In this document: piece after piece, positions 11,227-29,524 of the stretch
How the letters are laid out: the number at the start of each line of letters is the position of its first letter
How positions within the stretch are numbered: the stretch's first letter is position 1
Origin: Pelagibacteraceae bacterium AG-414-M23
GTDB lineage: Bacteria; Pseudomonadota; Alphaproteobacteria; Pelagibacterales; Pelagibacteraceae
Assembly (NCBI GenBank): GCA_003214525.1
Contig: QCLN01000012.1
Coordinates: forward strand, 1 to 38,919
Direction of reading: 5' to 3'
DNA length: 38,919 nt
Program-made: the position numbers and the translations under genes
Notes under the pieces: model-generated
Told to the model about the DNA's origin: nothing
The model's database searches: none
Seen by the model: only the letters and a program-made list of their open reading frames with translations

Positions 11227-11276
11227 GTTTTTGATTATTAGAATCTTTTTTAAAATAAGTACATATAATTTATTTT

Positions 11277-13698: not shown

Positions 13699-13730
13699 AT
13701 AACAACTATATACTTTTTTAAATTTAGATT

Positions 13731-13736
13731 ATAAAA
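13731..13736 (+). promoter_or_regulatory. possible -10 box for leaderless dhaK
   Basis: TATAAA lies 6 bases before the dhaK ATG with no Shine-Dalgarno sequence, the same layout as before tauB and several other genes here. The whole 44-bp spacer must also hold the leftward promoter for the nuclease operon. Confidence 0.35.
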
Positions 13737-13742
13737 ATAATT

Positions 13743-14738: not shown

Positions 14739-14786
14739 ATAATTTAAAAAAATTTTAAAAAAAACAATAAAATGATATAAAAGAAA

Positions 14787-15839: not shown

Positions 15840-16674
15840 TTATTTTTTTTAAGATATTTTTTTCATCGAATTTCAAATAATTATCTTGTTCAGTTCTGCT
15901 TCCATATTTATGAATTATTGTATCATCATAGCTTATTGTGTGTGTGATTTTATTAAAATATTTTTTTCTTAACAGTCTTTCTAAGACATTTCCAAAGTAT
16001 GGCTCTATTATAATAATTTTATTGTATGACTTAACAAATTTAAAATTTGTTTTTTTTGAAATACTGCTTACATAGTAAATATCGAAGTTGTTAGATTTTA
16101 TTTTTTTTGAGTCAATTGAGCCTCCAACAATAATTATCAAATTTTTATTATTTTTTTTTTTTAAATATCTATTATCAAATTTAGAATAGTCTATTTTTTT
16201 TTCTGAAATTCTAAAATAATTTACTGATTTATTGTTATAATTTTTTTTAAGTAAGTATTTAAATTCTTGTGCATTAGAAGGTATAAATAAGTTTATGTCT
16301 TTATAATTTGATAAAATACTAATATCTTCAAAACAGTGGTGTGTAGTCCCTAGCTTTGGATAATCATTAGAGGCACCAACTGATATAATGTTACAATTAA
16401 GTTTGTTATATACAAAATCTATTTTAATTTGATCTAAAGCTCTAAGTACTAAAAATGGAGTGATCGTATGTATTATTGGAATATATCCAGCTTTAGATAA
16501 ACCTGCTCCAAATCCAATCATAGACTGTTCCATTGTGCTCATATTAAAAATTCTATTTTTATAATTTTTAAAAATATTTCGGAATGAAAAAACACCAATA
16601 TCTCCTAACAGGCAGAATATTCTTTTGTCTTTTTTCATTAATTTTTCTACAGTAATCGGAAATACTTTTCTCAT
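15820..16674 (-). CDS. transketolase-like, C-terminal (pyrimidine-binding) subunit
   Basis: A 284-residue protein equivalent to the second half of a split transketolase. The catalytic Glu that activates the thiamine diphosphate aminopyrimidine is E49 in MSTMEQSMIGFGAGL. The THH..EDI element (GTTHHCFEDISILS) matches the GPTHQPIEDIA block of transketolases. The C-terminal third is short and divergent. Its ATG overlaps the stop of the N-subunit gene (ATGA, 16671-16674), so the two subunits are made together. The gene carries a T12 run (16151-16162). Its place inside a nucleotide-sugar operon points to sugar-precursor synthesis rather than central carbon metabolism. Confidence 0.85.
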   Translation of the reverse strand: MRKVFPITVEKLMKKDKRIFCLLGDIGVFSFRNIFKNYKNRIFNMSTMEQSMIGFGAGLSKAGYIPIIHTITPFLVLRALDQIKIDFVYNKLNCNIISVGASNDYPKLGTTHHCFEDISILSNYKDINLFIPSNAQEFKYLLKKNYNNKSVNYFRISEKKIDYSKFDNRYLKKKNNKNLIIIVGGSIDSKKIKSNNFDIYYVSSISKKTNFKFVKSYNKIIIIEPYFGNVLERLLRKKYFNKITHTISYDDTIIHKYGSRTEQDNYLKFDEKNILKKINEYSRK

Positions 16675-17423
16675 AATTTCAGCTCTAATTTAAATTTTTT
16701 TAACTCTTCCAAAGTGGGAGCTTTATGATGCCAAGCAGGATTATTTTTCATTGATTTTATGCCGTAACCCTTAATTGTATTTGCAATTACAATATTAAAA
16801 GATTTATTTTTCAAGCATTTATGAATTACGCTATCAATTTTTGAAAAATTATGGCCATTTATTTCATGAATTTTATCACAATATACTGACAATTTTTTTT
16901 TAAGTTTAATAAATTTAATACTTCTAAAATCAGATTTGTTTCTGTCTATTATTAGTAATAAATTTTTAATTTTAAAATTTTCAATTATATGCAATGTTTC
17001 CCAAGTTGTGCCTTCCATTAATTCTTGATCTCCAATTAAGCAGATTACTTTCTTATTTATTTTTTTTTGTTTGAGCCCGTATGCAAAACCTGCTGAATTA
17101 GGAAATCCATGGCCTAATGATCCTGTGGAAAAATTAAAAATTGGTAATTTGCTTGAATCAGGATGTCCTCCTAATTTTGAATTAAACTTGCCAAAAGAAT
17201 TATAATCTTTTTTTGATAGTAATTTGAAATGTTGCATTATGGCATAAACTCCAATAGCTGCATGGCCCTTACTTAATACAAAATAGTTTTTATTAATATA
17301 TTTTTTGAAAATAATATAAAGTATTTCCAATATTGAAAAAGCACTACCTATATGGCCTTCTTTTATATTAAAACAACTTTTTAGAATATTGTATCTTATT
17401 AAATTAATTTCTTTTTTAATCAT
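16671..17423 (-). CDS. transketolase-like, N-terminal (thiamine diphosphate-binding) subunit
   Basis: A 250-residue protein equivalent to the first half of transketolase. The motifs in order are EGHIGSAFS, LSKGHAAIG, GGHPDSSKLP, STGSLGHGFPNSAG and the diphosphate/Mg motif GDQELMEGTTWE (normally GDGE..EG) with IDRNK about 25 residues later. The Mg-ligand Asp and Asn are kept, although the canonical GDG reads GDQ and NN-like DNNG reads DRNK. It pairs with the following gene as a split enzyme that would transfer a two-carbon ketol unit. The start is ATG sharing a base with the gmd stop (TAATG). Confidence 0.85.
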   Translation of the reverse strand: MIKKEINLIRYNILKSCFNIKEGHIGSAFSILEILYIIFKKYINKNYFVLSKGHAAIGVYAIMQHFKLLSKKDYNSFGKFNSKLGGHPDSSKLPIFNFSTGSLGHGFPNSAGFAYGLKQKKINKKVICLIGDQELMEGTTWETLHIIENFKIKNLLLIIDRNKSDFRSIKFIKLKKKLSVYCDKIHEINGHNFSKIDSVIHKCLKNKSFNIVIANTIKGYGIKSMKNNPAWHHKAPTLEELKKFKLELKL

Positions 17424-18481
17424 TATTTGATTAATTTTAGATCGCTCTCTACCATCTCACTAATTAATTTATCGAAATTTATTTTCGGTTTCCACTTTAG
17501 GATTTTTTTAGCTTTAGAATAATTTCCTTTTAAATTGTGAACTTCATTAGGTCTAAAATAAATTTTTTCCTGCTTAACAATTACCTGGGATTTTTTAATA
17601 GATTGTTTATTTTCTGTTGCAACTACATATTCTAGGCCATCTTTATTTTTTTTCCATTTAGATTTAATTTGTAATTTTTTTAAGACTAAGTTAACAAGGT
17701 CTTTAACTGAGTAGTTTTTGCCAGTTGCTATAACAAAGTCATCTGGTTTTTTATTTTGCAAAATCTTCCATTGAGCTTCAACAAACTCCTTTGCATGACC
17801 CCAATCTCTTTTTGAATATAAGTTTCCTAAATAAAGACATTTTTGTTTTCCTTTTAAAACCTTTATTAATCCTATTATTGTTTTTCTGGATATAAAATTT
17901 TCACCTCGTCTTGGAGATTCATGGTTAAATAAAATTCCATTTGACGTAAACATCGAGTAAGCTTCTCTATAATTTTTTGTTATCCAATAAGAATATAGCT
18001 TTGCTGTTCCGTATGGAGATACTGGTTCAAATTTACTTTTTTCGTTGTAAGGTTTGTCTGGACTATTTCCAAATATTTCTGAAGTAGATGCTTGATAAAA
18101 TTTCATTTTTCTTTTTTTATCAATTATCCTAATTGCTTCTAAAATTCTTAATGTTCCAATAGAATCTGTTTGAGCTGTATATTCTGCTAATTCAAAAGAA
18201 ACTCCAACGTTGCTTTGTGCAGCTAGATTATATATTTCGTCAGGTCTAATTTGATCAATTAAATTAAATACATTTGAAAAATCTGTAACATCTCCATACT
18301 TAAGAATTAAATTAGGCTTTAAATGAAAATCCTCGTAAATATGATCTATCCTAGTGGTATGAATAAGGCTTGTTCTTCTTTTAACACCATAGACTTTATA
18401 TTTTTTATTTAAAAGAAGTTCGGCTAAATATGATCCATCTTGACCAGTTATACCAAATATCAATGCAATTTTTTTATTCAT
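17423..18481 (-). CDS. gmd: GDP-mannose 4,6-dehydratase
   Basis: A 352-residue extended SDR that makes GDP-4-keto-6-deoxy-D-mannose. Defining features are the NADP motif GITGQDGSYLAELLL (residues 10-24), KRRTSLIHTTRIDHIYED-like segment with the RRTS element, LAAQSNVGVSF, the catalytic SEIFG and the Y-x-x-x-K in SPYGTAKLYSYW, then HESPRRGENF. Length is normal. It is third in the leftward operon, 70 bp after the RmlC-like gene and sharing a base with the transketolase N-subunit. It supplies the keto-sugar needed by the ColD-like dehydratase encoded two genes upstream. Confidence 0.95.
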   Translation of the reverse strand: MNKKIALIFGITGQDGSYLAELLLNKKYKVYGVKRRTSLIHTTRIDHIYEDFHLKPNLILKYGDVTDFSNVFNLIDQIRPDEIYNLAAQSNVGVSFELAEYTAQTDSIGTLRILEAIRIIDKKRKMKFYQASTSEIFGNSPDKPYNEKSKFEPVSPYGTAKLYSYWITKNYREAYSMFTSNGILFNHESPRRGENFISRKTIIGLIKVLKGKQKCLYLGNLYSKRDWGHAKEFVEAQWKILQNKKPDDFVIATGKNYSVKDLVNLVLKKLQIKSKWKKNKDGLEYVVATENKQSIKKSQVIVKQEKIYFRPNEVHNLKGNYSKAKKILKWKPKINFDKLISEMVESDLKLIK

Positions 18482-18551
18482 TGTTGAAAGTTATTAATCT
18501 AATTAATTTTTAAAGTAAATTAAATATTTAAATAGCTCTAAGTATCAATCG

Positions 18552-19049
18552 CTATTTATCTCTTTTGGACAAAATTGGATTTTTCAGAGGCCATTTAAAA
18601 TTAATTCTAGGATCATTCCATTTTACTGAAATCTGATTTTTCACATCATTATATTTTCCTCTAAAAGAATATTTATATTGATATAAAGATTCTTTAGATA
18701 AACATAGCCAGGAATTCAAAAACATTGGAGGTATTAAGATAGAAATTTTATTTTTTTCATTTAATTTAATTGCTGTATATTTTAAATAATTTTTAGATTT
18801 TTTTCTATAATCAACAATTACATTAAGTACCTCACCTTTTATGCAGGTAACTAATTTCCAGGATTTCCTATCACAATGAAAACCTCTTAGGACTCTTTGA
18901 TTGGATGTTGTAAATTTATCAAGATTAAATTTTATTTTTCTAAAATAGCTTTTTTCCCAATTTGTCCAAATTTCCCCTCGCGAATCTTTAAACACATCTG
19001 CTTTAAAATATTTTATTTCACTAAGCTTTTTGTCTGACTTAATAAGCAT
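18552..19049 (-). CDS. RmlC-like nucleotide-sugar 3,5-epimerase (cupin)
   Basis: A 165-residue cupin of the dTDP-4-dehydrorhamnose 3,5-epimerase family. The catalytic His is in VLRGFHCD (H58), matching RGLHYQ of RmlC, and the family tail is WNDPRINFKWPL...LSKRDK (residues 144-165). The middle KLVTCIKGEVLNVIVDYRK (65-83) is the cupin core. It is shorter than classic RmlC (about 180). It sits between the ColD-like and gmd genes, with no rmlA/B/D in sight. A GDP-keto-sugar epimerised at C5 (or C3) is therefore more likely than dTDP-rhamnose synthesis, though this is inferred. Confidence 0.85.
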   Translation of the reverse strand: MLIKSDKKLSEIKYFKADVFKDSRGEIWTNWEKSYFRKIKFNLDKFTTSNQRVLRGFHCDRKSWKLVTCIKGEVLNVIVDYRKKSKNYLKYTAIKLNEKNKISILIPPMFLNSWLCLSKESLYQYKYSFRGKYNDVKNQISVKWNDPRINFKWPLKNPILSKRDK

Positions 19050-19057
19050 AACTAAAT

Positions 19058-20239
19058 TTATTTTTTTATCTTATCTAATAGCCTACAAAGACTCACTATT
19101 TTATTCTTACTTAGTTTAGGATAGTTTCCAATATATAAAGAATAAAAATGCATATGCTCTGTGTTCATTAAAGACTTAAATCTATTTTTAAAATTAAATG
19201 GTTTTAAATAAGGTTGTCTTAATTGATTGCCACCTCCCACACTTCCTGTTCTGTATTCAATTGAATTAGAATTTAATAATGAAATTACTTTTTTAAATAA
19301 TTTTTTATCTTTTTGTTTTAAAATTAAATTAAATCCATAATTGCTTGATCCTTTTAAGCTAAAGTTTGTAAAAAAAATATCTTTTCTCAAATTTTTAAGA
19401 AATAGTTTGTGATTATCGTTTCTTAATTTGATATTTTTATTTAATCTTTTTAATTGTTCAATTCCAATCACGGCTGAAAGTTCATTGTTTCTTAAGTTAA
19501 AACCTTCTGTAAAAAAAATAAAATCACTATTTAAATCTCTAAATTTTTTTTTAGTATTTTTAATTAATGATTCATTTTGAGAGTCTCTTAGTAATCCATG
19601 ACCTCTTTTCATTTTTGCAAGAGTATCTAAATCTTTAGAATTCGTGCAAATCATTCCACCCTCTATAGTAGTCATGTGATGAGCATAATAAAAAGAGAAA
19701 TTAGAAATGTTTCCCAATGTTCCAACCTTTTTATTATTAAGTTTTGCACCATGTGACTCACAAACATCTTCGATTAAAAAAATTTTCTTTTTTTTTAAAA
19801 ATTTAATAAAATTATTACTTGTCCCAACAAAACCCATTGCATGGGTTAGAAAAATCGCAGCAGTATTTTTACTTATTTTTTTTCTTATAAGGTCTTCATC
19901 TAGAGCTAAATTTTTTAAACTAATATCGACAAAAACTGGTTTAAATCCAGCATTGATAACTGCAACAACATCAGAATTCCAAGTGAAAGCTGGAACTATT
20001 ACTTCATTTTTATTTTTTTTTAACCCTTTAAGTATATTTAAAGATATTAAATTTGCTGACGCTCCAGAGTTTACAAATGTACTATATTTTACCCCAAGCC
20101 ATTTTGACCATTTTTTTTCAAACTCTTTAACCTTAATTCCATTTGTAAATCTATCTGACGATTTTATAAAGTTAATTAGAGCTTTTTTATCCTCAGGAAG
20201 TATATTATTGCTCATTAATTGCCAATGAAATTTTTTCAT
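19058..20239 (-). CDS. ColD/RfbH-like PLP-dependent sugar 3-dehydratase (DegT/DnrJ family)
   Basis: A DegT/DnrJ/EryC1-fold protein of 393 residues from the ATG at 20239; a GTG at 20248 would add three residues. Ordinary sugar aminotransferases have a Schiff-base Lys in FSFYPTKN-like blocks. Here the block reads FSFYYAHHMTTIEGG, so the Lys is replaced by His (H188), exactly as in ColD and the RfbH/E1 3-dehydrases, which remove the C3 hydroxyl instead of transaminating. D158 (EDVCESHGA) binds the pyridine nitrogen. With Gmd in the same operon, GDP-4-keto-3,6-dideoxymannose is the predicted product. It is first in the leftward operon, with no Shine-Dalgarno. Dehydratase chemistry is strongly suggested; the precise substrate is inferred. 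Confidence 0.85.
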   Translation of the reverse strand: MKKFHWQLMSNNILPEDKKALINFIKSSDRFTNGIKVKEFEKKWSKWLGVKYSTFVNSGASANLISLNILKGLKKNKNEVIVPAFTWNSDVVAVINAGFKPVFVDISLKNLALDEDLIRKKISKNTAAIFLTHAMGFVGTSNNFIKFLKKKKIFLIEDVCESHGAKLNNKKVGTLGNISNFSFYYAHHMTTIEGGMICTNSKDLDTLAKMKRGHGLLRDSQNESLIKNTKKKFRDLNSDFIFFTEGFNLRNNELSAVIGIEQLKRLNKNIKLRNDNHKLFLKNLRKDIFFTNFSLKGSSNYGFNLILKQKDKKLFKKVISLLNSNSIEYRTGSVGGGNQLRQPYLKPFNFKNRFKSLMNTEHMHFYSLYIGNYPKLSKNKIVSLCRLLDKIKK

Positions 20240-20319
20240 AATTTGCACAATAAATTAATAATCATTATAATCAAATTAATTCGTAAAAAATAAAACTATA
20301 TATATAAATTAAAAAACAA

Positions 20320-21252
20320 ATGAAACTTTTATCAGTAGTGTTTTCTTTTAGAAATGAAGAAGGAAATATAGAAGAATTAGTTAAACGAATTTCACAAAGT
20401 TTAGAAAAAGTTGAAAACTGGAATTATGAGCTAATATTTGTAAATGACGATTCAACTGATAGCTCTGAAAAAATTTTATTAGATCTTCAAAAAAAGTTTC
20501 CAATTAAAATCATTAATATGAGTAGAAGATTTGGAATTGACCCGTGCGTTTTAGCTGGTTTTAGAAACGCTGAAGGAGATGCAATAATATATCTTCATAC
20601 TGATTTGCAAGATCCGCCTGAAATTATTCCAGAACTTATAAAAAAACATGAAGAAGGATGTGATGTAGTTCACACTGTAAGAACAAAAAGAAAAGGTGAG
20701 TCTAAATTTAGAATGTTTGTTACAAAAATTGCCTACAACATTATTAATATTTTATCAGACATAAATCTTCCAGTTCAAGCCGGAGATTATAAATTAGTTT
20801 CAAGAAAAGCTCTTAATGAAATATTGAAACAGAAAGAATACAGACCTTATGTTAGAGGGCTCTCAGTTTGGGTTGGATTTAAGCAAGGATTTGTAAACTA
20901 TGAGAGAGAACCGAGAGGCTCTGGAATTTCTAAAATGCCTTTATTATCAGCTGGACCAGTAACTGACTTTATAAATGGTGTAACAAGTTATTCGCTTAAG
21001 CCATTATACATAGGTATTTTTTTTGGTTTCTTCTCAATTCTAGTTTCTATTTCAATAATAATTTATGCTCTATTTTTAAAATTTAGTAATTTAGCAGTTC
21101 CTGGCTCAACAAGTATTATTATTGCAATATCTTTTTTTTCAGGAATTCTTTTATTTACAATTGGTATAATTGGCATTTATTTGGCCAGAATATTTGAACA
21201 AACAAAAGGAAGAGATCAATATGTTATAAAAGATATTAAAGACTATAAATAA
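20320..21252 (+). CDS. GtrB/ArnC-like polyprenyl-phosphate glycosyltransferase (GT2)
   Basis: A 310-residue GT2 enzyme. The catalytic domain starts SVVFSFRNEEGNI, with VNDDSTDSSE (42-51) and the metal motif LHTDLQDPPE (92-101). QAGDYKLVSR corresponds to the conserved QxGDFrLmsR block of polyprenyl-phosphate hexose synthases. Two C-terminal membrane helices (about 226-250 and 262-290) anchor it, as in GtrB/DPM1-type proteins. It would load a sugar onto undecaprenyl phosphate at the cytoplasmic face. The next gene, 9 bp downstream, encodes a large polytopic protein that could be the periplasmic transferase using this donor. A TATAAA at 20303-20308 lies 11 bases before the ATG; no Shine-Dalgarno. 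Confidence 0.9.
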   Translation: MKLLSVVFSFRNEEGNIEELVKRISQSLEKVENWNYELIFVNDDSTDSSEKILLDLQKKFPIKIINMSRRFGIDPCVLAGFRNAEGDAIIYLHTDLQDPPEIIPELIKKHEEGCDVVHTVRTKRKGESKFRMFVTKIAYNIINILSDINLPVQAGDYKLVSRKALNEILKQKEYRPYVRGLSVWVGFKQGFVNYEREPRGSGISKMPLLSAGPVTDFINGVTSYSLKPLYIGIFFGFFSILVSISIIIYALFLKFSNLAVPGSTSIIIAISFFSGILLFTIGIIGIYLARIFEQTKGRDQYVIKDIKDYK

Positions 21253-21261
21253 TTTTCATAA

Positions 21262-23082
21262 ATGAAAAAATATCTTCCATACATACTAGCTTTTTTAGGT
21301 ATTATTATTTCTACTTTTGCCTGGGATTTAATTAAATTTCCTTATGATAATGAAAATTTAATTAATGGAAATTATTCTTCAAACAAAATCAACCCTTTAA
21401 ATGATACTGTTAGAGGTCTATTTTTCATATTTTTTCCGATAGCTATCTACATAATTGCACAAATTAATTTTAATAAATCAAACCTGTTACTGTCATTCAA
21501 TGCAAATAATGAAAATTATATTCGTCAAAGCTCAAACAATATTGAAGTAAATATTATTTCTTTAATTATTTTTATATTTATTATTTTTGAATTTTTTTCA
21601 TTAAATTATGAAAATTTTATTTCTAAAATAGATGTACATCATGAAGGTACATTGTTGTCTGCGCCTGTAAATTATTATTTTAAAAATAAATTTTGGCTTG
21701 GCACTCATTATGATTATGGATTTATAGGGAATAATATTGGTATATTATTTTCATATATATTTGGAGAATACAGTATAGGAATCAACAGATTTAGTAAGAT
21801 TGGTTTAATTCTTTTAAATAAATTTTTGATTATTCTTTTGTGTAGAAAAATAGTAACTAATATTTCAGAATTTAGAAACAAAGGTTTAATTTTTTTTATT
21901 TTTTGTCTAAGTTGTTTAAGTTTAGCTAGTTTTTATGAAGATGTTACACCTTTTCACCAAAGAATATTTGTTTTTTTAATCTTCTTTTTATTTTTAATTG
22001 AAGTTTTAACTTCTGTTAAAAAAAATATATTTATAGGTATTTTAACTGGTCTATTTTCATCAATATCAATTTTATTTTATATAGATATTGGAACTTATAT
22101 AAATGCACTTATTTTATTAGCTATTATATTTTTACTTTATCAAAAAAATTTTAAAAATATATATTATATTTTTTTAGGAATAATCCTTTCATGGTTAATT
22201 TTTTATTTAATAATTCCAAATGAGGAAATTATAGAATTTATTTATCAGTATAGATTTATAATAAATGTATCTGATTATTTGCTTGGAATTGAATTTCCCA
22301 AACCATTTTCCGATGGAGCAACCAGACATACAAAAGCTCTTCTAATGATTATTTTATCTGGTATTTTTTTATTTAATTATTTTTTTAATAAAAAATTTAA
22401 TGAAACTAACTCCTCTAAAATAATACTTCTATTTATATTTATTTCTTCAATAATTTTTTTTAAATCAGGTTTAATGAGATCTGACGGACCTCATATTAAA
22501 TATACATCAGGTTTTTATACTTTTATTATTTTCTTCTTTATTTATTATTATTTATACAAGTTAATAAAGAATAATAGAATTTATATAAAAATTGAAAATT
22601 TGTTTTTTCAAAAAAAATATCTTTTTAGTTTAGTTGTAATTGTACTTTGTGCAGGTATTTTTTTAAAAAATTCAGTAAATATAAAAAATATTTTTAATTT
22701 AGAAAAAAACTTTTATGCTCTTACAAAAGTTTCTGATGATGTTTTTCTAAGTTTAGAATATAAAGAATTTATTGAGTACTTTAAAAAAATTTCAATTAAT
22801 GATGATTGTGTTCAACTGTTTACCGATGACAATGCTTTACCTTATTTGTTGAATAAGCCAACATGTACACAATTTTACGTTAACTCACATATTATTAATG
22901 GATGGACGGAAAAAAAATTCATTAATCAATTACAAAAAAATAAGCCTGAATATATTGTTTATACTTCTGAAATTAATTGGTTTAAGGAAAGAAATAACGC
23001 TCCTAATGCAGAAAAATATATTTTAAATAATTATTATTTATTTAATAAATTTAAATATTGGCAAATATATAAAAGAAATTAA
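21262..23082 (+). CDS. polytopic membrane protein, candidate GT-C-type glycosyltransferase
   Basis: A 606-residue integral membrane protein with about a dozen hydrophobic segments. I do not recognise it by name. The first large loop holds KIDVHHEGTLLSAPVNYY (near residues 125-142), an acidic/His motif in the position where GT-C transferases carry catalytic acids. About 130 C-terminal residues (from about 475) look soluble and probably periplasmic. It follows a GtrB-like gene by 9 bp, an arrangement matching the GtrB plus serotype-specific Gtr transferase pairing. A GtrC-like role, moving a sugar from undecaprenyl phosphate to surface polysaccharide, is inferred. Its end overlaps the convergent GT17-like gene by 4 bp. 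Confidence 0.6.
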   Translation: MKKYLPYILAFLGIIISTFAWDLIKFPYDNENLINGNYSSNKINPLNDTVRGLFFIFFPIAIYIIAQINFNKSNLLLSFNANNENYIRQSSNNIEVNIISLIIFIFIIFEFFSLNYENFISKIDVHHEGTLLSAPVNYYFKNKFWLGTHYDYGFIGNNIGILFSYIFGEYSIGINRFSKIGLILLNKFLIILLCRKIVTNISEFRNKGLIFFIFCLSCLSLASFYEDVTPFHQRIFVFLIFFLFLIEVLTSVKKNIFIGILTGLFSSISILFYIDIGTYINALILLAIIFLLYQKNFKNIYYIFLGIILSWLIFYLIIPNEEIIEFIYQYRFIINVSDYLLGIEFPKPFSDGATRHTKALLMIILSGIFLFNYFFNKKFNETNSSKIILLFIFISSIIFFKSGLMRSDGPHIKYTSGFYTFIIFFFIYYYLYKLIKNNRIYIKIENLFFQKKYLFSLVVIVLCAGIFLKNSVNIKNIFNLEKNFYALTKVSDDVFLSLEYKEFIEYFKKISINDDCVQLFTDDNALPYLLNKPTCTQFYVNSHIINGWTEKKFINQLQKNKPEYIVYTSEINWFKERNNAPNAEKYILNNYYLFNKFKYWQIYKRN

Positions 23083-23957
23083 TCAAACCAATCGGCATAT
23101 TTTTTATGATTGTTCTGCAAAAAAGTGGGTAATTGGTCTATATCAATTTTTTTAAGGCTAAATTCAGATAATTGTCTGCTAATATCTTTTGAATCCTTAA
23201 AATGGTTATAATTAATTTTTCTTTCCTTTAGTAAACGTTCAATTTCTTTACTGTCAACATTTCTGCCGGCATATTCAGCGTGCATTTCATCATTTTCATA
23301 TTTATTAAGTAGACCCTGCAAATTCTTTACATTTGAAAAATGCCAGCCTCCATTTTGTATAATTTTTAGATCAATAAATTTATACTTAGAGAACATTACA
23401 TCTAATCGAAATGGTTTATATTTTTTTGGCTTTATATCCCTTAACCAGCTAATACTTTTTAGATATTTAAATCTACAACATTTAGTCCCATACCAATCTA
23501 GGATAGGATAAAGTAAATTAAATTTATAATAAAAAATTTTTTGTTTAAAAATAATAATTTTGTTTTTTATTTTTTCGAAGTTTAAATCTTTTAGATTTGG
23601 TATTTCATCATTGTCGCTATACATAATAATATCATCTGTGCTTGCATTTAATAAACCGCTTTGTATAAAGTCTCTTTGTTCCATTATTCTTTTAACGCTA
23701 TTGGTTCTTTGATCTTCAGGAGATGCAATGTTTTCATCAATTAAGTTTGGAGGTTCATTTTCTAATATAATATGTTTGATTTTTTTCTTAAATTTGGGAA
23801 AAGAATTGGGTTCAAAATTTATTTTTTTTTCCCTACCGCTGTGAGAGTATTTTGACTCACAAACTATAAAAGTATCAACGTATTCATTAAGAATATTAAA
23901 CCTTACATCCATCATTAAATCTTCTTCAAAATAAGTTGTGCAATCAAATATTTTCAT
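23079..23957 (-). CDS. GT17-family glycosyltransferase-like protein
   Basis: A 292-residue protein resembling glycosyltransferase family 17 (beta-1,4-N-acetylglucosaminyltransferase III type). Marks are the start MKIFDCTTYFEEDLMMDVRF, VDTFIVCESKYSHSG, the D-rich metal-binding MYSDNDEIPNL (near 187-197 region of the fold) and GWHFSNV. Bacterial GT17 homologues are commonly found in surface-glycan loci. It has no signal peptide, so it acts in the cytoplasm. It is a single leftward gene, convergent with the polytopic protein (4 bp overlap) and divergent from the Ldh2-family gene. Donor and acceptor are unknown. Confidence 0.82.
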   Translation of the reverse strand: MKIFDCTTYFEEDLMMDVRFNILNEYVDTFIVCESKYSHSGREKKINFEPNSFPKFKKKIKHIILENEPPNLIDENIASPEDQRTNSVKRIMEQRDFIQSGLLNASTDDIIMYSDNDEIPNLKDLNFEKIKNKIIIFKQKIFYYKFNLLYPILDWYGTKCCRFKYLKSISWLRDIKPKKYKPFRLDVMFSKYKFIDLKIIQNGGWHFSNVKNLQGLLNKYENDEMHAEYAGRNVDSKEIERLLKERKINYNHFKDSKDISRQLSEFSLKKIDIDQLPTFLQNNHKKYADWFD

Positions 23958-24023
23958 AATTTTTTAAAATTTTATCATTTTTTTTGATATTACTTTATAT
24001 ATAATAATGAAAAAAAACATTAA

Positions 24024-25034
24024 ATGCCACAAACAAAAACAATAAAAAAAATAGTTGAAAAAATATTTCTCAATAAAGGTTTAAAATTAAAACATAGTAA
24101 ACTGTGTGCCAAAGCTTTAATTAATGCAGAATTGGTTGGTGCACCATCTCATGGATTATCAAGGCTTAAGATGTATTGTGAAAGAATAGATAAAAAAATT
24201 ATTAATAAAAATCCAAAAATAAAGATTAGAAAAATTTCTGGCTCAATCGCGCATATTAATGCTGATAATGCAATTGGATTTGTAGCTGCTCAACTAGGAA
24301 TAGATCTAGCTATAAAAAATGCAAAAAAAAATGGGATTAGTTTAGTAGCTATTAAAAATAGTGGTCATTATGGATTGTCAGGATATTACGCGGAACAAGC
24401 TGCTAAAAAAAATTTAATTTCCTTATGTTTTACTAATGCTCCTCCAGCAATTGCTCCACATGGTGCAAAAAAAACATTATTTGGAACAAATCCGATATGT
24501 TTTGCGGCTCCAACTGCAACAAAAGTTCCTTTTGTTTTAGACTCATCTGTTTCAATGATTAATAGAGGAAAAATTAGAGTTGCAGCTAAGCTTGGAAAAA
24601 AAATACAATTAGGAGTGGCGTTAGATAAAAATGGTAACCCAACAACTGATCCTAAAAAAGCTCTACAAGGTGTGCAGCTTCCTATAGCTGGTTTTAAAGG
24701 ATCTGGATTAGCATGGATGGTTGATATTTTATCAGGTGTTTTTACAGGGGGAAATCATGGTGGAAAAGTGAAAGATCCATTTGACGATTTTTCTGGGCCT
24801 CAAAATATAGGTCATTTATTTATTGTTTTTAAACCCAATTTATTTGTTAAAGATTACCTAAAAAGAATTAAGGAAAATATCAAAAGAATTAAAAAATTAC
24901 CAAAACTTAAAGGTGTTAAAAAAATATACTACCCTGGCGAAAATAAGGCTGCAAGATTTAAGTTAAATTTAAAAAAAGAAATTAGTATTCCTTCAAATAT
25001 TTTAAATGAAATTAAAATGTTAAATAAAAGCTGA
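24024..25034 (+). CDS. Ldh2-family 2-hydroxyacid dehydrogenase (malate/L-lactate/sulfolactate type)
   Basis: A 336-residue NAD(P)-dependent oxidoreductase of the Ldh2/MdhII family (COG2055), which is unrelated to Rossmann-type lactate dehydrogenases. Family motifs are GAPSHGLSR (39-47, H43), NSGHYGLSGYYA (112-123, catalytic H115), FGTNPICFAAP, DSSVS..RGKI and LPIAGFKGSGLAW. Members act on malate, lactate, ureidoglycolate, 2,3-diketogulonate and, in ComC/SlcC, (R)-sulfolactate. Given the nearby HpsN-like and phosphotransacylase genes, sulfolactate is an attractive but unproven substrate. A consensus TATAAT at 24000-24005 is a probable -10 box. Only a short leader without Shine-Dalgarno precedes the ATG. 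Confidence 0.85.
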   Translation: MPQTKTIKKIVEKIFLNKGLKLKHSKLCAKALINAELVGAPSHGLSRLKMYCERIDKKIINKNPKIKIRKISGSIAHINADNAIGFVAAQLGIDLAIKNAKKNGISLVAIKNSGHYGLSGYYAEQAAKKNLISLCFTNAPPAIAPHGAKKTLFGTNPICFAAPTATKVPFVLDSSVSMINRGKIRVAAKLGKKIQLGVALDKNGNPTTDPKKALQGVQLPIAGFKGSGLAWMVDILSGVFTGGNHGGKVKDPFDDFSGPQNIGHLFIVFKPNLFVKDYLKRIKENIKRIKKLPKLKGVKKIYYPGENKAARFKLNLKKEISIPSNILNEIKMLNKS

Positions 25035-25112
25035 TGCGAGCCAAGCTAGCGTAAAGATAGATAAAGATAAAAATAATATATTTAAGTGTTTATAATGTTT
25101 CTTGTTAAACAA
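25020..25112 (-). CDS. possible 30-residue single-helix membrane peptide
   Basis: A short frame starts with TTG at 25112 inside the stop region of the upstream 70-residue gene (GTTGTTTAA). It encodes a basic head (FNKKHYKH) followed by a clear 18-20 residue membrane helix (NILFLSLSIFTLAWLASAFI) and then a stop. The TTG-over-stop coupling is like that at 9684. It fills the otherwise empty gap and overlaps the end of the convergent Ldh2-family gene by 15 bp. Nothing beyond hydrophobicity and placement supports it. Confidence 0.3.
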   Translation of the reverse strand: MFNKKHYKHLNILFLSLSIFTLAWLASAFI

Positions 25113-25317
25113 CTATGTACCCCAATATTGCAATTGTAAAACAAAACATTCCTAATAATACTCTGTTTTGAAATCTTTCTCTTTTTTGTTCATTGAATAC
25201 TCTTTTCCTTAGAACATCTATATTAACTTTTTTTGGTGTCTGAGCTTTCTTGCTAGCACTCTCTTGAGGGTTACCATTGTTAGCTACAGATGTTCTATTT
25301 AATATCTCAGTACTCAT
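25105..25317 (-). CDS. small single-pass membrane protein of unknown function
   Basis: A 70-residue protein I cannot name. The N-terminal 30 residues are polar and Ser/Asn/Gln-rich. The middle is a charged helix (VNIDVLRKRVFNEQKRERF, residues 31-49), and the C-terminus is a single membrane helix (VLLGMFCFTIAILGYIVV, 53-70). This tail-anchored layout puts most of the protein in the cytoplasm. Base composition is less extreme than in the neighbouring polysaccharide genes, which suggests a conserved core gene. It is divergent from the tandem winged-helix regulator across a 100-bp spacer holding clear repeats, so the two may share control. Confidence 0.7.
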   Translation of the reverse strand: MSTEILNRTSVANNGNPQESASKKAQTPKKVNIDVLRKRVFNEQKRERFQNRVLLGMFCFTIAILGYIVV

Positions 25318-25355
25318 ATTTTTATAAAATAAATTAAATCACCAATTAGGCACCT

Positions 25356-25370
25356 TGTATAAGCTATACA
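25356..25370. promoter_or_regulatory. perfect palindrome, candidate operator
   Basis: TGTATA-AGC-TATACA is a perfect 6-3-6 inverted repeat in the divergent spacer between the 70-residue membrane protein gene and the regulator gene. The size suits a dimeric helix-turn-helix protein. No binding protein is proven. Confidence 0.45.
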
Positions 25371-25374
25371 TGAC

Positions 25375-25415
25375 CAAAATGGGTTGACAAAATAAATCAT
25401 TGTAACAAAATGGGT
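25375..25415 (+). repeat. direct repeat CAAAATGGGT x2 around the regulator promoter
   Basis: Two exact 10-bp copies, CAAAATGGGT, lie at 25375-25384 and 25406-25415, 31 bp apart (about three helical turns) on the same face. One abuts the -35 box and the other covers the presumed -10 and start point, ending two bases before the ATG. This is the placement expected for autoregulation. Confidence 0.6.
25384..25411 (+). promoter_or_regulatory. promoter of the tandem-wHTH regulator gene
   Basis: A perfect TTGACA (25384-25389) is followed after 16 bp by CAAAAT (25406-25411), a weak -10 box. The ATG stands 6 bases later, so transcription would start at or next to the initiation codon and give a leaderless mRNA. 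There is no Shine-Dalgarno. Confidence 0.5.
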
Positions 25416-25417
25416 CT

Positions 25418-26389
25418 ATGAATAAAAAAAGCGATATACCAAGCCTTAATCAAGCTTTAAATCATAAAATTTTTCATAACTCTATAACAAAAAATTATTC
25501 TGAATTTTCCAAAGTATACATAACTTTCTTATCTGATTGGTTAACTTCTACCGTTAAAGCTTTTAATGATAGTGACAAGTTTCATGTAATGCTTTGCATT
25601 TTTAAAAGGAATTTAAACTTTTACAATGATAATTTGATTAAATTTAATTATGAAACTTTTAATAAAACTAATCAATTTGATATTCAAAAAATAAATATTG
25701 TAGAAATAGCAAAAACTTTAAATTTACCAAAAGAAACAACGAGAAGAAAACTACTTGAACTCCAAAATATAGGTGTAATTAAAAGATACAAAAAAAATAT
25801 TATAATTGATAAAAATTCAATTAAATTATTTAATATCGATAATATTATAGAACGACTAGGAGATTTATTGTTTAAAATTTATAATGTTTGTTTAAAAGAA
25901 AATTTTCTTGATGTTAAAATATTATCCAAAAAAGAAATTATTATAACATTGAAAGATAACTTTTCATTTTTGTTATTACATTATTTTGAATTTATTATAC
26001 CTTGGATAGTTCGTTGGAGAAGATTTTTTAATAATGATACAGAATTATTTATTATATGGGCCATAATCTTCCTTAATAAAACAGTTAAAATAACAAAAGG
26101 AAAAGAAACTCGTACTGATATTATAAAATGGCGTGCTGAAATTGATGCCACAAACACCGTTGGAATTAACACAATGTCTTTGTCAGAGATAAGCGGAATA
26201 CCAAGGCCTACTGTTTCAAGAAAAATTAAAAAACTATTAGCGAAAAAATTAATTATTATTGATGAATATAAATTGATTCACCCTCTAAATATTTATTATA
26301 AAAAGGAACTAGAGAATATACAATCTATTTCTTTAGATTCGTTCAGTAAATTTTCCATAATGGTTTTTAATCGAATTTTTCTTAATTAG
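25418..26389 (+). CDS. tandem winged-helix transcriptional regulator
   Basis: A 323-residue protein with two separate helix-turn-helix units. The first reads NIVEIAKTLNLPKETTRRKL (about 94-113) followed by a wing-like IGVIKRYKKNIIID. The second reads MSLSEISGIPRPTVSRKIKK (about 252-271) followed by KKLIIIDEYKLIHP. Each resembles the MarR/Crp-like reader of an iterated winged helix, with the ETTRRKLLEL and PTVSRKIKKL recognition helices. The regions between and before them are helical and fit no sensor domain I know. No membrane segment is present. It is preceded by a consensus -35 box and two direct repeats. Its end overlaps the convergent BASS transporter gene by 8 bp. The target genes may be the adjacent divergent and downstream units. 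Confidence 0.72.
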   Translation: MNKKSDIPSLNQALNHKIFHNSITKNYSEFSKVYITFLSDWLTSTVKAFNDSDKFHVMLCIFKRNLNFYNDNLIKFNYETFNKTNQFDIQKINIVEIAKTLNLPKETTRRKLLELQNIGVIKRYKKNIIIDKNSIKLFNIDNIIERLGDLLFKIYNVCLKENFLDVKILSKKEIIITLKDNFSFLLLHYFEFIIPWIVRWRRFFNNDTELFIIWAIIFLNKTVKITKGKETRTDIIKWRAEIDATNTVGINTMSLSEISGIPRPTVSRKIKKLLAKKLIIIDEYKLIHPLNIYYKKELENIQSISLDSFSKFSIMVFNRIFLN

Positions 26390-27230
26390 ATTTTTTGACA
26401 ATAAATAAAAATATAAATGCTGTAATGTACATTACTAAAGCATACGCTGCTGTTGGGATCATATAAACAATGTCGCTAAATATTTGTGTTGCTACAAATA
26501 CAGCTAATGTTCCATTTTGAAGGCCACACTCAAGAGCGATACATTTTTTTTGTTTGATTCCAGTTGCAAAAATTTTTGCAATGTAATAGGCGATGAACAT
26601 CATTGCAACGTTTAGAATTAAAACTACAAGCCCAGCTTGACTTAAATAACTTATTATATTTTCTTTTTCTTCAATCCAAATTGCTACAAAAACAATTAAA
26701 AATAAAACAGCATTTATTTTATTAATAAATGACACCTTTGAAGAAATAAAATTATCCAGAAACTTTCTAATAATCATTCCTAAGATTACGGGAACAGTAA
26801 CAACTAGTGCCATTTTTAACGCAATACCTGTCATTGTAATTTCTTGTGAAATATTAACCACACCTAAAAGTGTTGCTGATTGAAAAACAATTAATGGAAC
26901 AGATACAATGCTAATCAAACTAATTATTGCTGTTAAAGAAATTGAAAGTGCAACATCACCATCTGCAAATTTAGTTAATACATTCGAAGTAACTCCACCA
27001 GGTGCGGCTGCTATAATCATAACTCCTAATGCTAATTCTGTTGGTGTTTTTAAAAAAATAATTAGTACATAAGCAACTATTGGAAGAATTATTAGCTGGC
27101 AAAACAAACCTACTAAAAAATCTTTGGGATTTTTCAATACTCTTACAAAATCATCAACTTTTAAACCAAGCCCTAAACCAAGCATAATTAGAGCAAGTGC
27201 AATTGGTGCTATTTTAGTAACTATTTCCAT
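26382..27230 (-). CDS. BASS-family (bile acid:sodium symporter-like) organic anion transporter
   Basis: A 282-residue membrane protein with about nine to ten helices, the usual size for bacterial BASS proteins. The start LALIMLGLGLGLKVDDF, the LPIVAY segment and the AAPGGVTSNVLTKFADGDVALSIS block (residues about 74-97) form the Na-binding crossover region of this family. A second half contains ALECGLQNGTLAVFVA, the other conserved block. BASS members import pantoate, pyruvate, sulfonated bile acids and other anions with sodium. A C3 sulfonate or sulfolactate ligand would fit the neighbours but is speculation. It is divergent from the phosphotransacylase gene across 70 bp. Confidence 0.88.
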   Translation of the reverse strand: MEIVTKIAPIALALIMLGLGLGLKVDDFVRVLKNPKDFLVGLFCQLIILPIVAYVLIIFLKTPTELALGVMIIAAAPGGVTSNVLTKFADGDVALSISLTAIISLISIVSVPLIVFQSATLLGVVNISQEITMTGIALKMALVVTVPVILGMIIRKFLDNFISSKVSFINKINAVLFLIVFVAIWIEEKENIISYLSQAGLVVLILNVAMMFIAYYIAKIFATGIKQKKCIALECGLQNGTLAVFVATQIFSDIVYMIPTAAYALVMYITAFIFLFIVKKSN

Positions 27231-27263
27231 TGATCTTCTCTACCATATTGTTGTTAAAATTAC

Positions 27264-27292
27264 TTTATAGAAATGTGAAAAAACAATATAAG
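27264..27292 (+). promoter_or_regulatory. promoter of the phosphotransacylase-HpsN-like operon
   Basis: TTTATA (27264-27269), a 17-bp spacer and TATAAG (27287-27292, five of six consensus) precede the ATG by 8 bases. There is no Shine-Dalgarno, so a leaderless or nearly leaderless mRNA is predicted. Confidence 0.5.
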
Positions 27293-27300
27293 AAACTCCA

Positions 27301-28212
27301 ATGTTATCAGATAAAAAAGTAGTTTGCCCAATAAACCTTCTTGAAAAAGCTAGTTCCAAAAAAGGAATCAAGGCTGCAATTGTTAATGCTGGAAAACCTC
27401 TTCCAATGATTTCTGTATTAGATGCAGTAAATGAAAAGCTTATAGAACCTATTTTTATCGGTAATGAAACTGAGATAAAAAAATGTGCAGGTGAGCTAAA
27501 ATGGGATATTTCCAGCTATAAAATTATCCATGAACCAGTTGAAAATAATACTGCAGAAATTGCAGCAAAAATAGCGTCGGAAGATGAAGTAAAAATTATT
27601 GTTAAAGGTCATATTCATACAGATATTTTGATGAAAGAAGTTTTAAAAAGACAACACAAATTAATTAATAAAACACGTCTAAGTCATATTTGGCATATGA
27701 CACTGGAAAAAAATGATAAACCTTTAATTATCACTGATGGCGCTTTAAATGTTATGCCAAATATTAAAACAAAATTACATATATTAAAAAATGCCGTTGA
27801 TTTTGCAAAAAGAATTGGAATAGAAAAACCCAAGATAGCACTTTTATCAGCAACTGAAGAAGTTATTGAAAGTGTACCATCAACTTTGGATGCAAAGGAA
27901 ATTACTGAGCTTGCAAAATCAGAAAATATAGATGCATATGTTTTTGGTCCTTTAGCATTTGACAATGCGATCTCTAAAAAATCAGCAGTAATTAAAGGAA
28001 TAAAAAATGTTGTTGCCGGACAAGCAGATATATTGTTAGTTCCAAATGTTGAAACTGGTAATTCTCTTGTAAAAATGATGATTTATTTTATGGGAGCTTG
28101 TGCCGCAGGTGTTGTTGTGGGTGGTAAAGTACCAGTAGTAATAACAAGTAGATCTGATGATGCTCCGGCAAGACTTGCTTCTATAGCCGCTGCAGTAGTT
28201 GCATTAGATTGA
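27301..28212 (+). CDS. phosphate acetyl/butyryltransferase family enzyme
   Basis: A 303-residue PTA/PTB-family protein that exchanges phosphate and CoA on an acyl group. Marks include IVKGHIHTDILMKEVL (100-115 region), RLSHIWHM, ITDGALNVMP (the TDGAxNxxP block), and the C-terminal VGGKVPVVITSRSDDAPARL. It looks like the short form also found as the C-terminal half of enoyl-CoA hydratase/phosphate acetyltransferase fusions. There is no acetate kinase next to it. In sulfonate catabolism, sulfoacetaldehyde acetyltransferase yields acetyl phosphate, and a Pta is then needed to make acetyl-CoA; that fits this neighbourhood. The next gene, 25 bp on, is the HpsN-like dehydrogenase. The acyl specificity is not known. 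Confidence 0.87.
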   Translation: MLSDKKVVCPINLLEKASSKKGIKAAIVNAGKPLPMISVLDAVNEKLIEPIFIGNETEIKKCAGELKWDISSYKIIHEPVENNTAEIAAKIASEDEVKIIVKGHIHTDILMKEVLKRQHKLINKTRLSHIWHMTLEKNDKPLIITDGALNVMPNIKTKLHILKNAVDFAKRIGIEKPKIALLSATEEVIESVPSTLDAKEITELAKSENIDAYVFGPLAFDNAISKKSAVIKGIKNVVAGQADILLVPNVETGNSLVKMMIYFMGACAAGVVVGGKVPVVITSRSDDAPARLASIAAAVVALD

Positions 28213-28237
28213 TTAATGATTTAAATTTTTAAAAATT

Positions 28238-29524
28238 ATGGCTATAAAATATTTAAAAAAATCTCCAAAAACATCATCTACTGATGACTTTAAAACAAGA
28301 GAAATTGTAGAAAATATTTTAAAAGATATAGAAAAAACAAAAGAAGAAGGTTGTAAAAAGCTTGGTAAAAAATTTGACAATTATGATGGTGAGATAATAG
28401 TTTCTAAAGAAAAAATCGAAGAGATAAAAAAAAATTTAGATCAAAAAACTAAAGATGATATCCAGTTTTCGCACGAAAGAGTTAGAAAATTTGCGGAAGC
28501 ACAATTAAAAAATTATGGTCAAGACTTTGAAGTTGAGCTATCTGATGGTCTTTATGCGGGACAAAAATTAATACCGGTTAATACTGCTGGATGTTATGTT
28601 CCGGCGGGAAGATATGCTCATATTGCATCTGCTGTAATGAGTGTAACCACAGCTAAAGTTGCTGGTGTAAAAAATATACTTGTCTGTAGTTCGCCTAAGG
28701 CAGAAATAGGAGTGCACCCTTCTATTGTTTATACTGCTGACTTATGTGGAGCAAATGTAATTATGAATCTAGGTGGGGTACAAGCTATTGCCGCAATGAC
28801 GAATGGTTTATTTGGAAACGCCCCTGCTGATATTTTAGTTGGACCTGGAAATCAATTTGTTGCAGAAGCAAAAAGAATTTTATTTGGAAAAGTTGGAATA
28901 GATCTTTTTGCTGGACCAACTGAAATTGCAATAATAGCCGATGAATCTGCAGATCCTGAAATCGTTGCTTATGATTTAGTTGGACAAGCTGAACACGGTT
29001 ATAATTCTCCAGCTTGGCTGTTTACAAAAAGTAAAAAATTAGCAAATGATGTAATGAAAAGAGTACCAGAACTAATTGCAGATTTACCTGAACTCCCAAA
29101 ACAAAGTGCTGGTGATGCATGGAGAGATTTTGGTGAAGTAATTCTATGTGATACAGATGAAGAAATGGCAAAAATTAGTGACGAGTATGCACCTGAGCAT
29201 TTAGAGGTCCAAACTAAAAATTTAAAATGGTTTCATGAGAGGCTAAAAAATTATGGTTCTTTATTTATAGGTGAAGAAACTACAGTTGCTTACGGTGATA
29301 AATGTTCAGGCACTAATCATATTTTACCAACTAAAGGTGCTGGGAGATACACTGGTGGTTTATTTGTTGGAAAATTTATTAAAACTTTAAGTTTTCAAAG
29401 AATGACTAAAGAGTCTACAAAAGAAGTTGGTTCAGCCGCTGCAAGAATTTCAAGGTATGAAGGCATGGAAGCTCATGCAAGAACAGGCGATGTAAGGCTT
29501 AGAAAATATGGGTTTTCAAATTAA
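28238..29524 (+). CDS. hpsN: HisD-family dehydrogenase, candidate sulfopropanediol 3-dehydrogenase
   Basis: A 428-residue protein of the histidinol dehydrogenase superfamily, in which one Zn-dependent enzyme oxidises an alcohol to an acid in two NAD steps. All key residues are kept: Zn ligands Q250, H253, D354 and H413, and the catalytic pair E320-H321 (APEHLEVQ), plus H361 in GTNHILPT. The tail AHARTGDVRLRKYG and the paralogous N-terminus are of the HpsN-like branch rather than of HisD in a his operon. HpsN oxidises 2,3-dihydroxypropane-1-sulfonate (DHPS) to sulfolactate. No histidine genes are adjacent. The pairing with a phosphotransacylase and the nearby Ldh2-family gene supports a sulfonate role. 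True histidinol dehydrogenase activity is a remaining alternative. Confidence 0.72.
   Translation: MAIKYLKKSPKTSSTDDFKTREIVENILKDIEKTKEEGCKKLGKKFDNYDGEIIVSKEKIEEIKKNLDQKTKDDIQFSHERVRKFAEAQLKNYGQDFEVELSDGLYAGQKLIPVNTAGCYVPAGRYAHIASAVMSVTTAKVAGVKNILVCSSPKAEIGVHPSIVYTADLCGANVIMNLGGVQAIAAMTNGLFGNAPADILVGPGNQFVAEAKRILFGKVGIDLFAGPTEIAIIADESADPEIVAYDLVGQAEHGYNSPAWLFTKSKKLANDVMKRVPELIADLPELPKQSAGDAWRDFGEVILCDTDEEMAKISDEYAPEHLEVQTKNLKWFHERLKNYGSLFIGEETTVAYGDKCSGTNHILPTKGAGRYTGGLFVGKFIKTLSFQRMTKESTKEVGSAAARISRYEGMEAHARTGDVRLRKYGFSN

Follow-up and report, generated by a model that had tools for sequence, protein, structure and literature searches.

The window studied here, the whole stretch of 38,919 nt that forms positions 1-38919 of contig C12 of Pelagibacteraceae bacterium AG-414-M23 (genome label G000; 1.10 Mb in 38 contigs, 87.6% complete), carries taurine-type genes at its left end and, at 24024-29524, the genes ldh2, a regulator, a transporter of the bile acid:sodium symporter (BASS) family, pta and hpsN. 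We consider it likely that together these genes represent the carbon-side half of an organosulfonate catabolic system of SAR11 (Pelagibacteraceae). Sequence and genome comparison show the identities of HpsN, Xsc, SuyAB, AprBA and the Pta family, a joint locus in related genomes and the finding of no acetate kinase.

In the proposed pathway HpsN would form (R)-sulfolactate from (R)-2,3-dihydroxypropane-1-sulfonate (DHPS) by two NAD+-dependent oxidations, a conversion published for a SAR11 homolog (PMC11131964), and SuyAB, encoded on contig C9, would cleave (R)-sulfolactate to pyruvate and sulfite, ComDE not being needed. TauABC would import taurine, which the Tpa/AptA-like enzyme would transaminate with pyruvate to sulfoacetaldehyde while Ald recycles the alanine. 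Xsc, whose gene on C9 is divergent from suyAB, would yield acetyl phosphate and sulfite, the Pta of the window would make acetyl-CoA, and the sulfite would be taken on by AprBA, by a TauE-like exporter encoded near xsc, or by both. Ldh2A would most likely interconvert sulfopyruvate and sulfolactate, feeding SuyAB from cysteate, S-sulfolactate or a similar compound, and the BASS protein may import sulfonates. The substrates of Tpa and TauABC, the steps given to Pta, Ldh2A and the BASS protein, and the direction of flow are presumed in this scheme.

The genus was represented by 121 genomes, 19 of them of good quality, with a control set of 14 genomes; the family-level comparison covered 147 genomes in 14 genera. 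Members of the genus share ancestry, and synteny counts are therefore not independent. Forty genus regions were compared, 38 centred on hpsN and two on ldh2 (genomes without an hpsN match), and six extra regions, some centred on pta, bring the total to 46; such centring biases the comparison toward short distances. The 12 regions from other genera were picked around pta. Open reading frames and Pfam matches agree with the five genes and families that an earlier, sequence-only reading had placed at 24024-29524, each being present over its full span (Table 1). Rfam gave zero matches across the window.

Table 1. Features of the window, with the evidence for each
Feature	Position	Strand	Evidence
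ald, alanine dehydrogenase; would return transamination alanine to pyruvate	323..1435	-	TIGR00518, 489 bits (cut-off 392)
tpa, omega-amino acid:pyruvate aminotransferase of the Tpa/AptA type; putative taurine transaminase, yielding sulfoacetaldehyde	1442..2788	-	NF052567 AptA, 583 bits (cut-off 500)
tauA-like sulfonate-binding protein	2990..3931	+	SsuA/TauA models, below cut-off
tauB-like ATPase	4017..4814	+	taurine ATPase model, 268 bits (cut-off 357)
tauC-like permease	4816..6726	+	TauC model, 180 bits (cut-off 342)
Island parting tauC from ldh2	6727..24023		gap comparison, Pfam on ten proteins, G+C
ldh2 (Ldh2A), Ldh_2 family; putative sulfolactate/sulfopyruvate dehydrogenase that falls outside the ComC clade	24024..25034	+	Pfam Ldh_2, 378 bits
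Helix-turn-helix (HTH) regulator, without named family	25418..26389	+	weak HTH matches near residues 96-130 and 255-279
BASS-family transporter (SBF); candidate sulfonate importer	26382..27230	-	Pfam SBF, 128 bits
pta, PTA_PTB-type phosphotransacylase; probably acetyl phosphate to acetyl-CoA	27301..28212	+	Pfam PTA_PTB, 125 bits
hpsN, predicted (R)-DHPS 3-dehydrogenase giving (R)-sulfolactate	28238..29524	+	Histidinol_dh fold, PDB matches, identity, residues, synteny; SAR11 homolog assayed in PMC11131964

HpsN and its pairing with pta

The HisD-family protein had been called HpsN-like, and the comparisons bear this out. Its best PDB matches are sulfopropanediol 3-dehydrogenase (8v35, 525 bits) and (R)-DHPS dehydrogenase (8wwe, 494 bits), compared with 230 bits for the best true HisD; the score against Pfam Histidinol_dh is 437 bits. 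Identity to three HpsN proteins from outside SAR11 is 56.6-62.5%, the lower value being that for the annotated protein of Cupriavidus pinatubonensis and the upper that for a Paracoccus hps-suy cluster, as against 32% for the HisD of the same genome, which is encoded by a separate gene on contig C1. The window protein carries GRY at residues 124-126, a motif that its own HisD lacks, and possesses R125-Y126-A127 as well as the conserved catalytic residues His321, Asp354 and His361 (numbering is that of RpHpsN plus one). The third residue of the Arg-Tyr-(Ser/Ala) triple is Ala here and in C. pinatubonensis, and Ser in R. pomeroyi; Liu et al. (PMC11131964) place the Arg-Tyr pair around the catalytic centre of HpsN and describe the roles of the residues. 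By these measures the protein clearly reads as HpsN, not as biosynthetic HisD. The gene was found in 87 of the 121 genus genomes and in 17 of the 19 good-quality ones, with one match per genome at E 1e-90.

HpsN of the SAR11 strain HTCC1002, expressed by Liu et al. (2024; PMC11131964), was active on R-DHPS, with a Km of approximately 106 mM and a 2.2-fold preference over histidinol (their Table 1). Given these weak kinetics, the enzyme might be a promiscuous HisD-like dehydrogenase whose main substrate in the cell is another alcohol, such as another sulfonated or phosphonated diol, which the operon would then serve. This we regard as improbable: the sequence is clearly that of an HpsN rather than a HisD, a separate HisD exists, and suyAB, which would act on the product, is found in the same genome and, in a region from another SAR11 genus (L158), at the same locus.

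The placing of hpsN and pta in one operon also stood. The two genes are 25 nt apart in the window. Of the 86 genus genomes that carry the pair, 85 have the genes in the same orientation, pta being 23-173 bp to the 5′ side of hpsN. The exception is G104, where an 11.8-kb stretch separates them (L095, 4007-15814). Overall, pta is present in 92/121 genus genomes, as a single match per genome at E 1e-15. Within the genus hpsN remains tied to pta while the distances around the pair vary.

Xsc, SuyAB and the fate of sulfoacetaldehyde

Xsc had been supposed to lie elsewhere in the genome, and a search located it on contig C9 (G000:C9:20439-22166), where TIGR03457 gives 965 bits against a cut-off of 676.4. 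Including this one, 93 of the 121 genus genomes exceed the cut-off. On the same contig, divergent from xsc, suyB (8894-10060) and suyA (10066-10353) are found side by side (L048, minus strand). The SuyB protein is 63-67% identical to the SuyB adjoining hpsN in C. pinatubonensis and Paracoccus, the SuyA protein 46-53%; among the 20 plasmid rows listed for SuyB, matches of 58-68% are followed by a drop to 39%. An ortholog of suyB occurs in 103/121 genus genomes, a figure obtained from 106 matched genomes after removal of three (G050, G076 and G088) in which the match was just to a paralog, at about 30% identity. Near xsc the source genome also carries aprB and aprA, both over cut-off, and a membrane protein which, from its sequence, we take to be TauE-like, although no NCBIfam model matched it usefully. 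In Pelagibacteraceae suyAB and xsc have been described as core or near core, and xsc, suyAB and aprAB as core (PMC12636525); PMC10356861 cites evidence that SAR11 expresses Tpa, Xsc and AprAB in Antarctic waters.

The sequence-only reading had DHPS proceed through sulfolactate (HpsN), sulfopyruvate (Ldh2 acting as ComC), sulfoacetaldehyde (ComDE) and acetyl phosphate (Xsc) to acetyl-CoA (Pta), so that DHPS and taurine would merge at sulfoacetaldehyde. Such a route would account for the neighbourhood of ldh2, pta and hpsN, and Xsc is indeed present. The model for the beta subunit of sulfopyruvate decarboxylase (ComE, TIGR03846; cut-off 221.5 bits), however, is exceeded in none of the 121 genus genomes, the alpha model TIGR03845 not having been searched, whereas two of the 14 control genomes exceed it. 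In the source genome the highest score is 35 bits, in large thiamine diphosphate-dependent enzymes, and the closed genomes G012 and G082, which carry the locus, give only 35-36 bits. Twelve of the 121 genomes possess ORFs of about 300-390 residues with matches of 66-125 bits to the ComE model, which is the remaining point in favour of the decarboxylase. SuyAB, by comparison, is near-universal in the genus, and since suyAB is in the genome, R-sulfolactate need not pass via sulfoacetaldehyde, Xsc and Pta. The ComDE step is thus not supported, and we judge this route very improbable.

The fit of Pta to Xsc fared better. No acetate kinase (PF00871) was found among the 121 genus genomes, while 9/14 control genomes match. 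Because the genome encodes Xsc and the genus gave no acetate kinase, Pta probably serves Xsc, taking acetyl phosphate to acetyl-CoA; G078 and G107, which have xsc and gave no pta match, speak against this.

Ldh2A, the BASS protein and the regulator

Ldh2 had been placed in the family of "(R)-sulfolactate dehydrogenase SlcC/ComC," which mixes two enzymes. SlcC belongs to the D-2-hydroxyacid dehydrogenase family and the window protein to the Ldh_2 family, so that SlcC was discarded as an identity for it. The two also differ in that SlcC is S-specific and ComC R-specific (PMC11131964). In the Paracoccus clusters a hydroxyacid dehydrogenase beside the Ldh protein is likewise a separate protein; the names slcC and comC are our labels for these plasmid genes, given from gene order, the records reading hydroxyacid dehydrogenase and Ldh family oxidoreductase.

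Descent from ComC is rejected by phylogeny. Four Ldh proteins that hold the ComC position in suy clusters share 49-71% identity with one another and 29-36% with Ldh2A. A tree of 29 rows sets the ComC-position clade (support 97/90) apart from Ldh2A (100/99), and a single clade of ComC plus Ldh2A is rejected by the approximately unbiased test (p-AU 0.0104); the group was named before the tree was seen, and 4/13 Ldh2A rows were truncated to 286 residues. Long branches (AllD and the genome's own second Ldh2) make other placements in this tree unsure. That second Ldh_2 paralog (G000:C6; L110, 6798-7796, plus strand) falls with ComC in the tree, on a long branch, and its gene is located between housekeeping genes. 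Against the NCBIfam model for L-sulfolactate dehydrogenase (NF040650) Ldh2A scores 256 bits with a cut-off of 500, and against that for ureidoglycolate dehydrogenase 249 bits with a cut-off of 356; the solved ureidoglycolate dehydrogenase gives 199 bits and the solved sulfolactate dehydrogenase 2x06 191 bits.

Beyond its orthologs, the nearest relatives of Ldh2A lie in hydroxyacid-type operons, and Ldh2A, perhaps with the regulator and the BASS gene, could be a cassette for an unrelated hydroxyacid (malate-, lactate- or tartrate-like) that happens to stand beside the taurine/DHPS locus. In keeping with this, the tree puts Ldh2A among enzymes of tripartite tricarboxylate transporter (TTT)/tartrate-like operons, ldh2, the regulator and BASS can persist without pta and hpsN (L103), and 14 genus genomes have pta with no Ldh2A match. 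Gene order speaks for the other side. In the 78 genus genomes where both Ldh2A and pta were found, they share a contig in 74 and lie on different contigs in four; ldh2A is upstream of pta on the same strand in 74/74 shared contigs, within 200 bp or overlapping in 24 (overlaps of 1-2 bp in G032, G035 and G069 counted as adjacent). The Ldh2A set of 84 positions excludes the paralogs and a 50% match in G030. Outside the genus ldh2 precedes pta in 7/12 regions, in two of them beside suyAB or xsc. Class-wide, 5/385 genomes matched at E <=1e-70, counting the source genome and two more of the genus. We hold the independent cassette to be a possible account, though not the favoured one.

Two regions from other Pelagibacteraceae point to a sulfonate role. 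In L156 (1161-5565, minus strand) suyA, suyB, a slcC-like gene, ldh2 and pta form an array, with an HpsP-like zinc dehydrogenase adjoining. The Ldh2A ortholog there is 57% identical to the window protein, and its gene overlaps the slcC-like gene by 4 bp; the product of the latter, a D-2-hydroxyacid dehydrogenase, is 40-44% identical to those of suy clusters and 27-32% to two control proteins. This array is known from a single 5.6-kb contig of one metagenome-assembled genome, and a scan of named genomes (close relatives only) for the slcC-like gene returned two loci, that same contig and a 35% Bacteroidales match. In L158 suyBA, xsc, ldh2, pta, an HpsP-like dehydrogenase (38% identical to that of C. 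pinatubonensis) and hpsN occur within 11 kb, with other genes between them. The source genome has suyAB on a different contig from Ldh2A. Despite the tree, the context in L156 and L158 tips us slightly toward a sulfopyruvate/sulfolactate role for Ldh2A, one held by function rather than by ComC descent.

What had been described as an anion transporter is a transporter, more exactly one of the BASS family. Its gene has 88 orthologs in the 121 genus genomes (91 matched, less G008, G032 and G069 with matches of 29-32% only; two fragments are included), in 80 of which pta was also found. In 68 of these 80 it is located on the pta contig, always on the 5′ side of pta and at most 18.1 kb away (40 adjacent and divergent, 19 at 9-18 kb), and in 12 on another contig. 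The regulator, too, is present; its HTH matches, at two places, are weak, and it was not assigned to a named family. The domain scan found no match to a sensor domain. It is 32-47% identical to its counterparts where matched in the genus, compared with 68-95% for ldh2, pta and hpsN there, and by this measure is fast-evolving.

In R. pomeroyi HpsKLM is the tripartite ATP-independent periplasmic (TRAP) transporter for DHPS (PMC10130141). L158 carries hpsN, the HpsP-like dehydrogenase and a TRAP transporter together (11118-16562, minus strand), which could not be equated with HpsKLM, identities being only 23-26% and the permease being 24% identical to that of P. seriniphilus. The large TRAP permease of L158 has orthologs in 89/121 genus genomes (at least 77% identity). 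Taking all 89 of these rows and all 93 xsc rows over cut-off, both genes occur in 71 genomes and share one contig in 49, at 7.6-40 kb. The source genome gave only a 1.2e-55 match to this permease, the P. seriniphilus TRAP set not having been searched there. The BASS protein is not supported as a simple replacement of the L158-type TRAP transporter, since the closed genome G012 has both.

On a more far-reaching version, Pelagibacteraceae would possess a C3-sulfonate branch of their own, assembled out of non-orthologous components, in which a non-ComC Ldh_2 enzyme took over the sulfopyruvate/(R)-sulfolactate step, a BASS protein replaced HpsKLM-type DHPS/sulfolactate uptake, both became joined to taurine genes in one locus, and one Pta with the desulfonating enzymes SuyAB and Xsc serves three sulfonates: taurine, DHPS and another, for instance cysteate. 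We offer this tentatively and think it rather doubtful as a whole.

The joint locus, its island and known systems

Taurine handling at the left end, proposed earlier, is retained in part: the aminotransferase passes the AptA model, while the transporter genes score below the curated cut-offs of the Tau models. The Tpa/AptA-type gene is divergent from tauA, and its product is presumably specific for taurine. The suggested link to taurine catabolism is physical in relatives, in which ald, tpa/tauABC, ldh2, pta and hpsN form one locus of about 10 kb. Many genus regions have ald, tpa and tauABC directly upstream of ldh2; in L090, from the closed genome G012, the stretch from ald to hpsN measures 9.9 kb and includes gaps of 190 bp (tauC-ldh2), 43 bp (ldh2-pta) and 65 bp (pta-hpsN). 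In 27 of the 46 genus regions tauC and ldh2 are on one strand with a gap of -1 to 4635 bp; in 18 of them it does not exceed 311 bp, and the others stay within 4.6 kb. In other genera tau genes are near pta in 9/12 regions.

In the window the same gap measures 17,297 bp, and its G+C content is 24.1-27.8% compared with 29.5-32.4% in the flanking blocks. Because the gap is short in relatives and 17.3 kb here, in DNA of low G+C, the window is a joint sulfonate locus split by an inserted island. Ten island proteins were scanned by Pfam: a glucose/sorbosone dehydrogenase, two dihydroxyacetone kinase domains, two sulfotransferase-type proteins, PhyH, an epoxide hydrolase, a GDP-mannose dehydratase and two glycosyltransferases. 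The kinase domains Dak2 (DhaL; 7776-8363, plus strand) and Dak1 (DhaK; 13743-14738, plus strand) are encoded by separate genes 5.4 kb apart, and the Sulfotransfer_3 (8346-9377) and Arylsulfotran_2 (9883-11226) proteins, both on the minus strand, are near neighbours. Stretches of about 7-12 kb were also seen at other joints, between pta and hpsN in G104, ldh2 and BASS in G101, and BASS and pta in G037 (L095, L065 and L091, respectively), which gives the locus the look of a hot spot for insertions.

Besides the kinetics of SAR11 HpsN, the placement and scores of Ldh2A, the single contig behind L156 and the low scores of the left-end transporter genes, several points weigh against the reading of the window as part of one sulfonate system. 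Two genomes that are 91-92% complete (G078 and G107) keep xsc, suyB, tau and ldh2, and searches for pta and hpsN matched neither; three genus genomes that are 97% complete (G602, G623 and G627) gave no pta match, xsc not having been searched there. In the family pta occurs in 63/147 genomes and 7/14 genera. In other genera hpsN is found in 6/12 regions, where it lies roughly 1-7 kb away from pta and is encoded on the opposite strand; the tight pta-hpsN pair is therefore a trait of this genus. A search for a shared operator motif in the intergenic regions tpa|tauA, SBF|pta, suyA|xsc and GT|ldh2 did no better than 20 shuffles of each. Finally, PMC10356861 points out that sulfate excretion with taurine is yet to be demonstrated in cultured SAR11.

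To the right of the locus, a protein of the YhdH/acrylyl-CoA reductase family (36320-37321, minus strand) scores 420 bits against a cut-off of 297, and 357 bits on the AcuI model, whose cut-off is 440. The acrylyl-CoA reductase family is linked to dimethylsulfoniopropionate breakdown. The gene beside it (35428-36318, minus strand) is presumably of the LysR type.

The activity of SAR11 HpsN and the core suyAB/xsc genes are already published, and the chemistry is largely known. SAR11 has been implicated in DHPS degradation (PMC8269247). No description of the joint tau-ldh2-pta-hpsN locus, the Ldh2 gene or the BASS gene was found in the literature, which is weak evidence of absence, since most subscription papers were out of reach; within the limits of that search, the architecture of the locus and its two candidate parts, Ldh2 and BASS, are a modest addition. 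The enzymes of the locus concern the use of small sulfur-containing compounds made by plankton. A linked locus for both sulfonates in much of the genus, with SuyAB rather than ComDE downstream, indicates which genes might be followed in ocean transcripts, and Ldh2 and BASS are testable candidates for two missing parts, a third dehydrogenase and an uptake system. Caution is advised against naming the Ldh2 gene comC.

The closest known counterpart is the hps-suy cluster of C. pinatubonensis (L118; pathway in PMC11131964), of which homologs are found here (HpsN 57%, SuyB 63%, SuyA 53%) and with which the route from R-DHPS via R-sulfolactate to pyruvate and sulfite would be shared. There hpsN, hpsO and suyAB form one cluster with a major facilitator superfamily transporter, whereas here pta and the taurine-type genes accompany hpsN, suyAB is found next to xsc in another part of the genome, and neither hpsO nor hpsP adjoins hpsN. 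Liu et al. (2024; PMC11131964) likewise note that SAR11 does not have hpsO, hpsP and hpsN in one cluster. The window HpsN is probably orthologous to CuHpsN of Ca. Pelagibacter ubique HTCC1002 (PU1002_02401; PMC11131964), as judged from one match per genome and not from a comparison of the sequences. Paracoccus seriniphilus (L105) and P. aestuarii (L119) combine suyAB with a D-2-hydroxyacid dehydrogenase and an Ldh_2 enzyme, an arrangement like the L156 array, although their Ldh proteins form a clade separate from the window's Ldh2. The SAR11 Tpa-Xsc-AprAB route of taurine dissimilation (PMC10356861) is matched here by tau/tpa-like genes, xsc, aprBA and Pta, with the difference that in this genus Pta is tied physically to hpsN and not to xsc.

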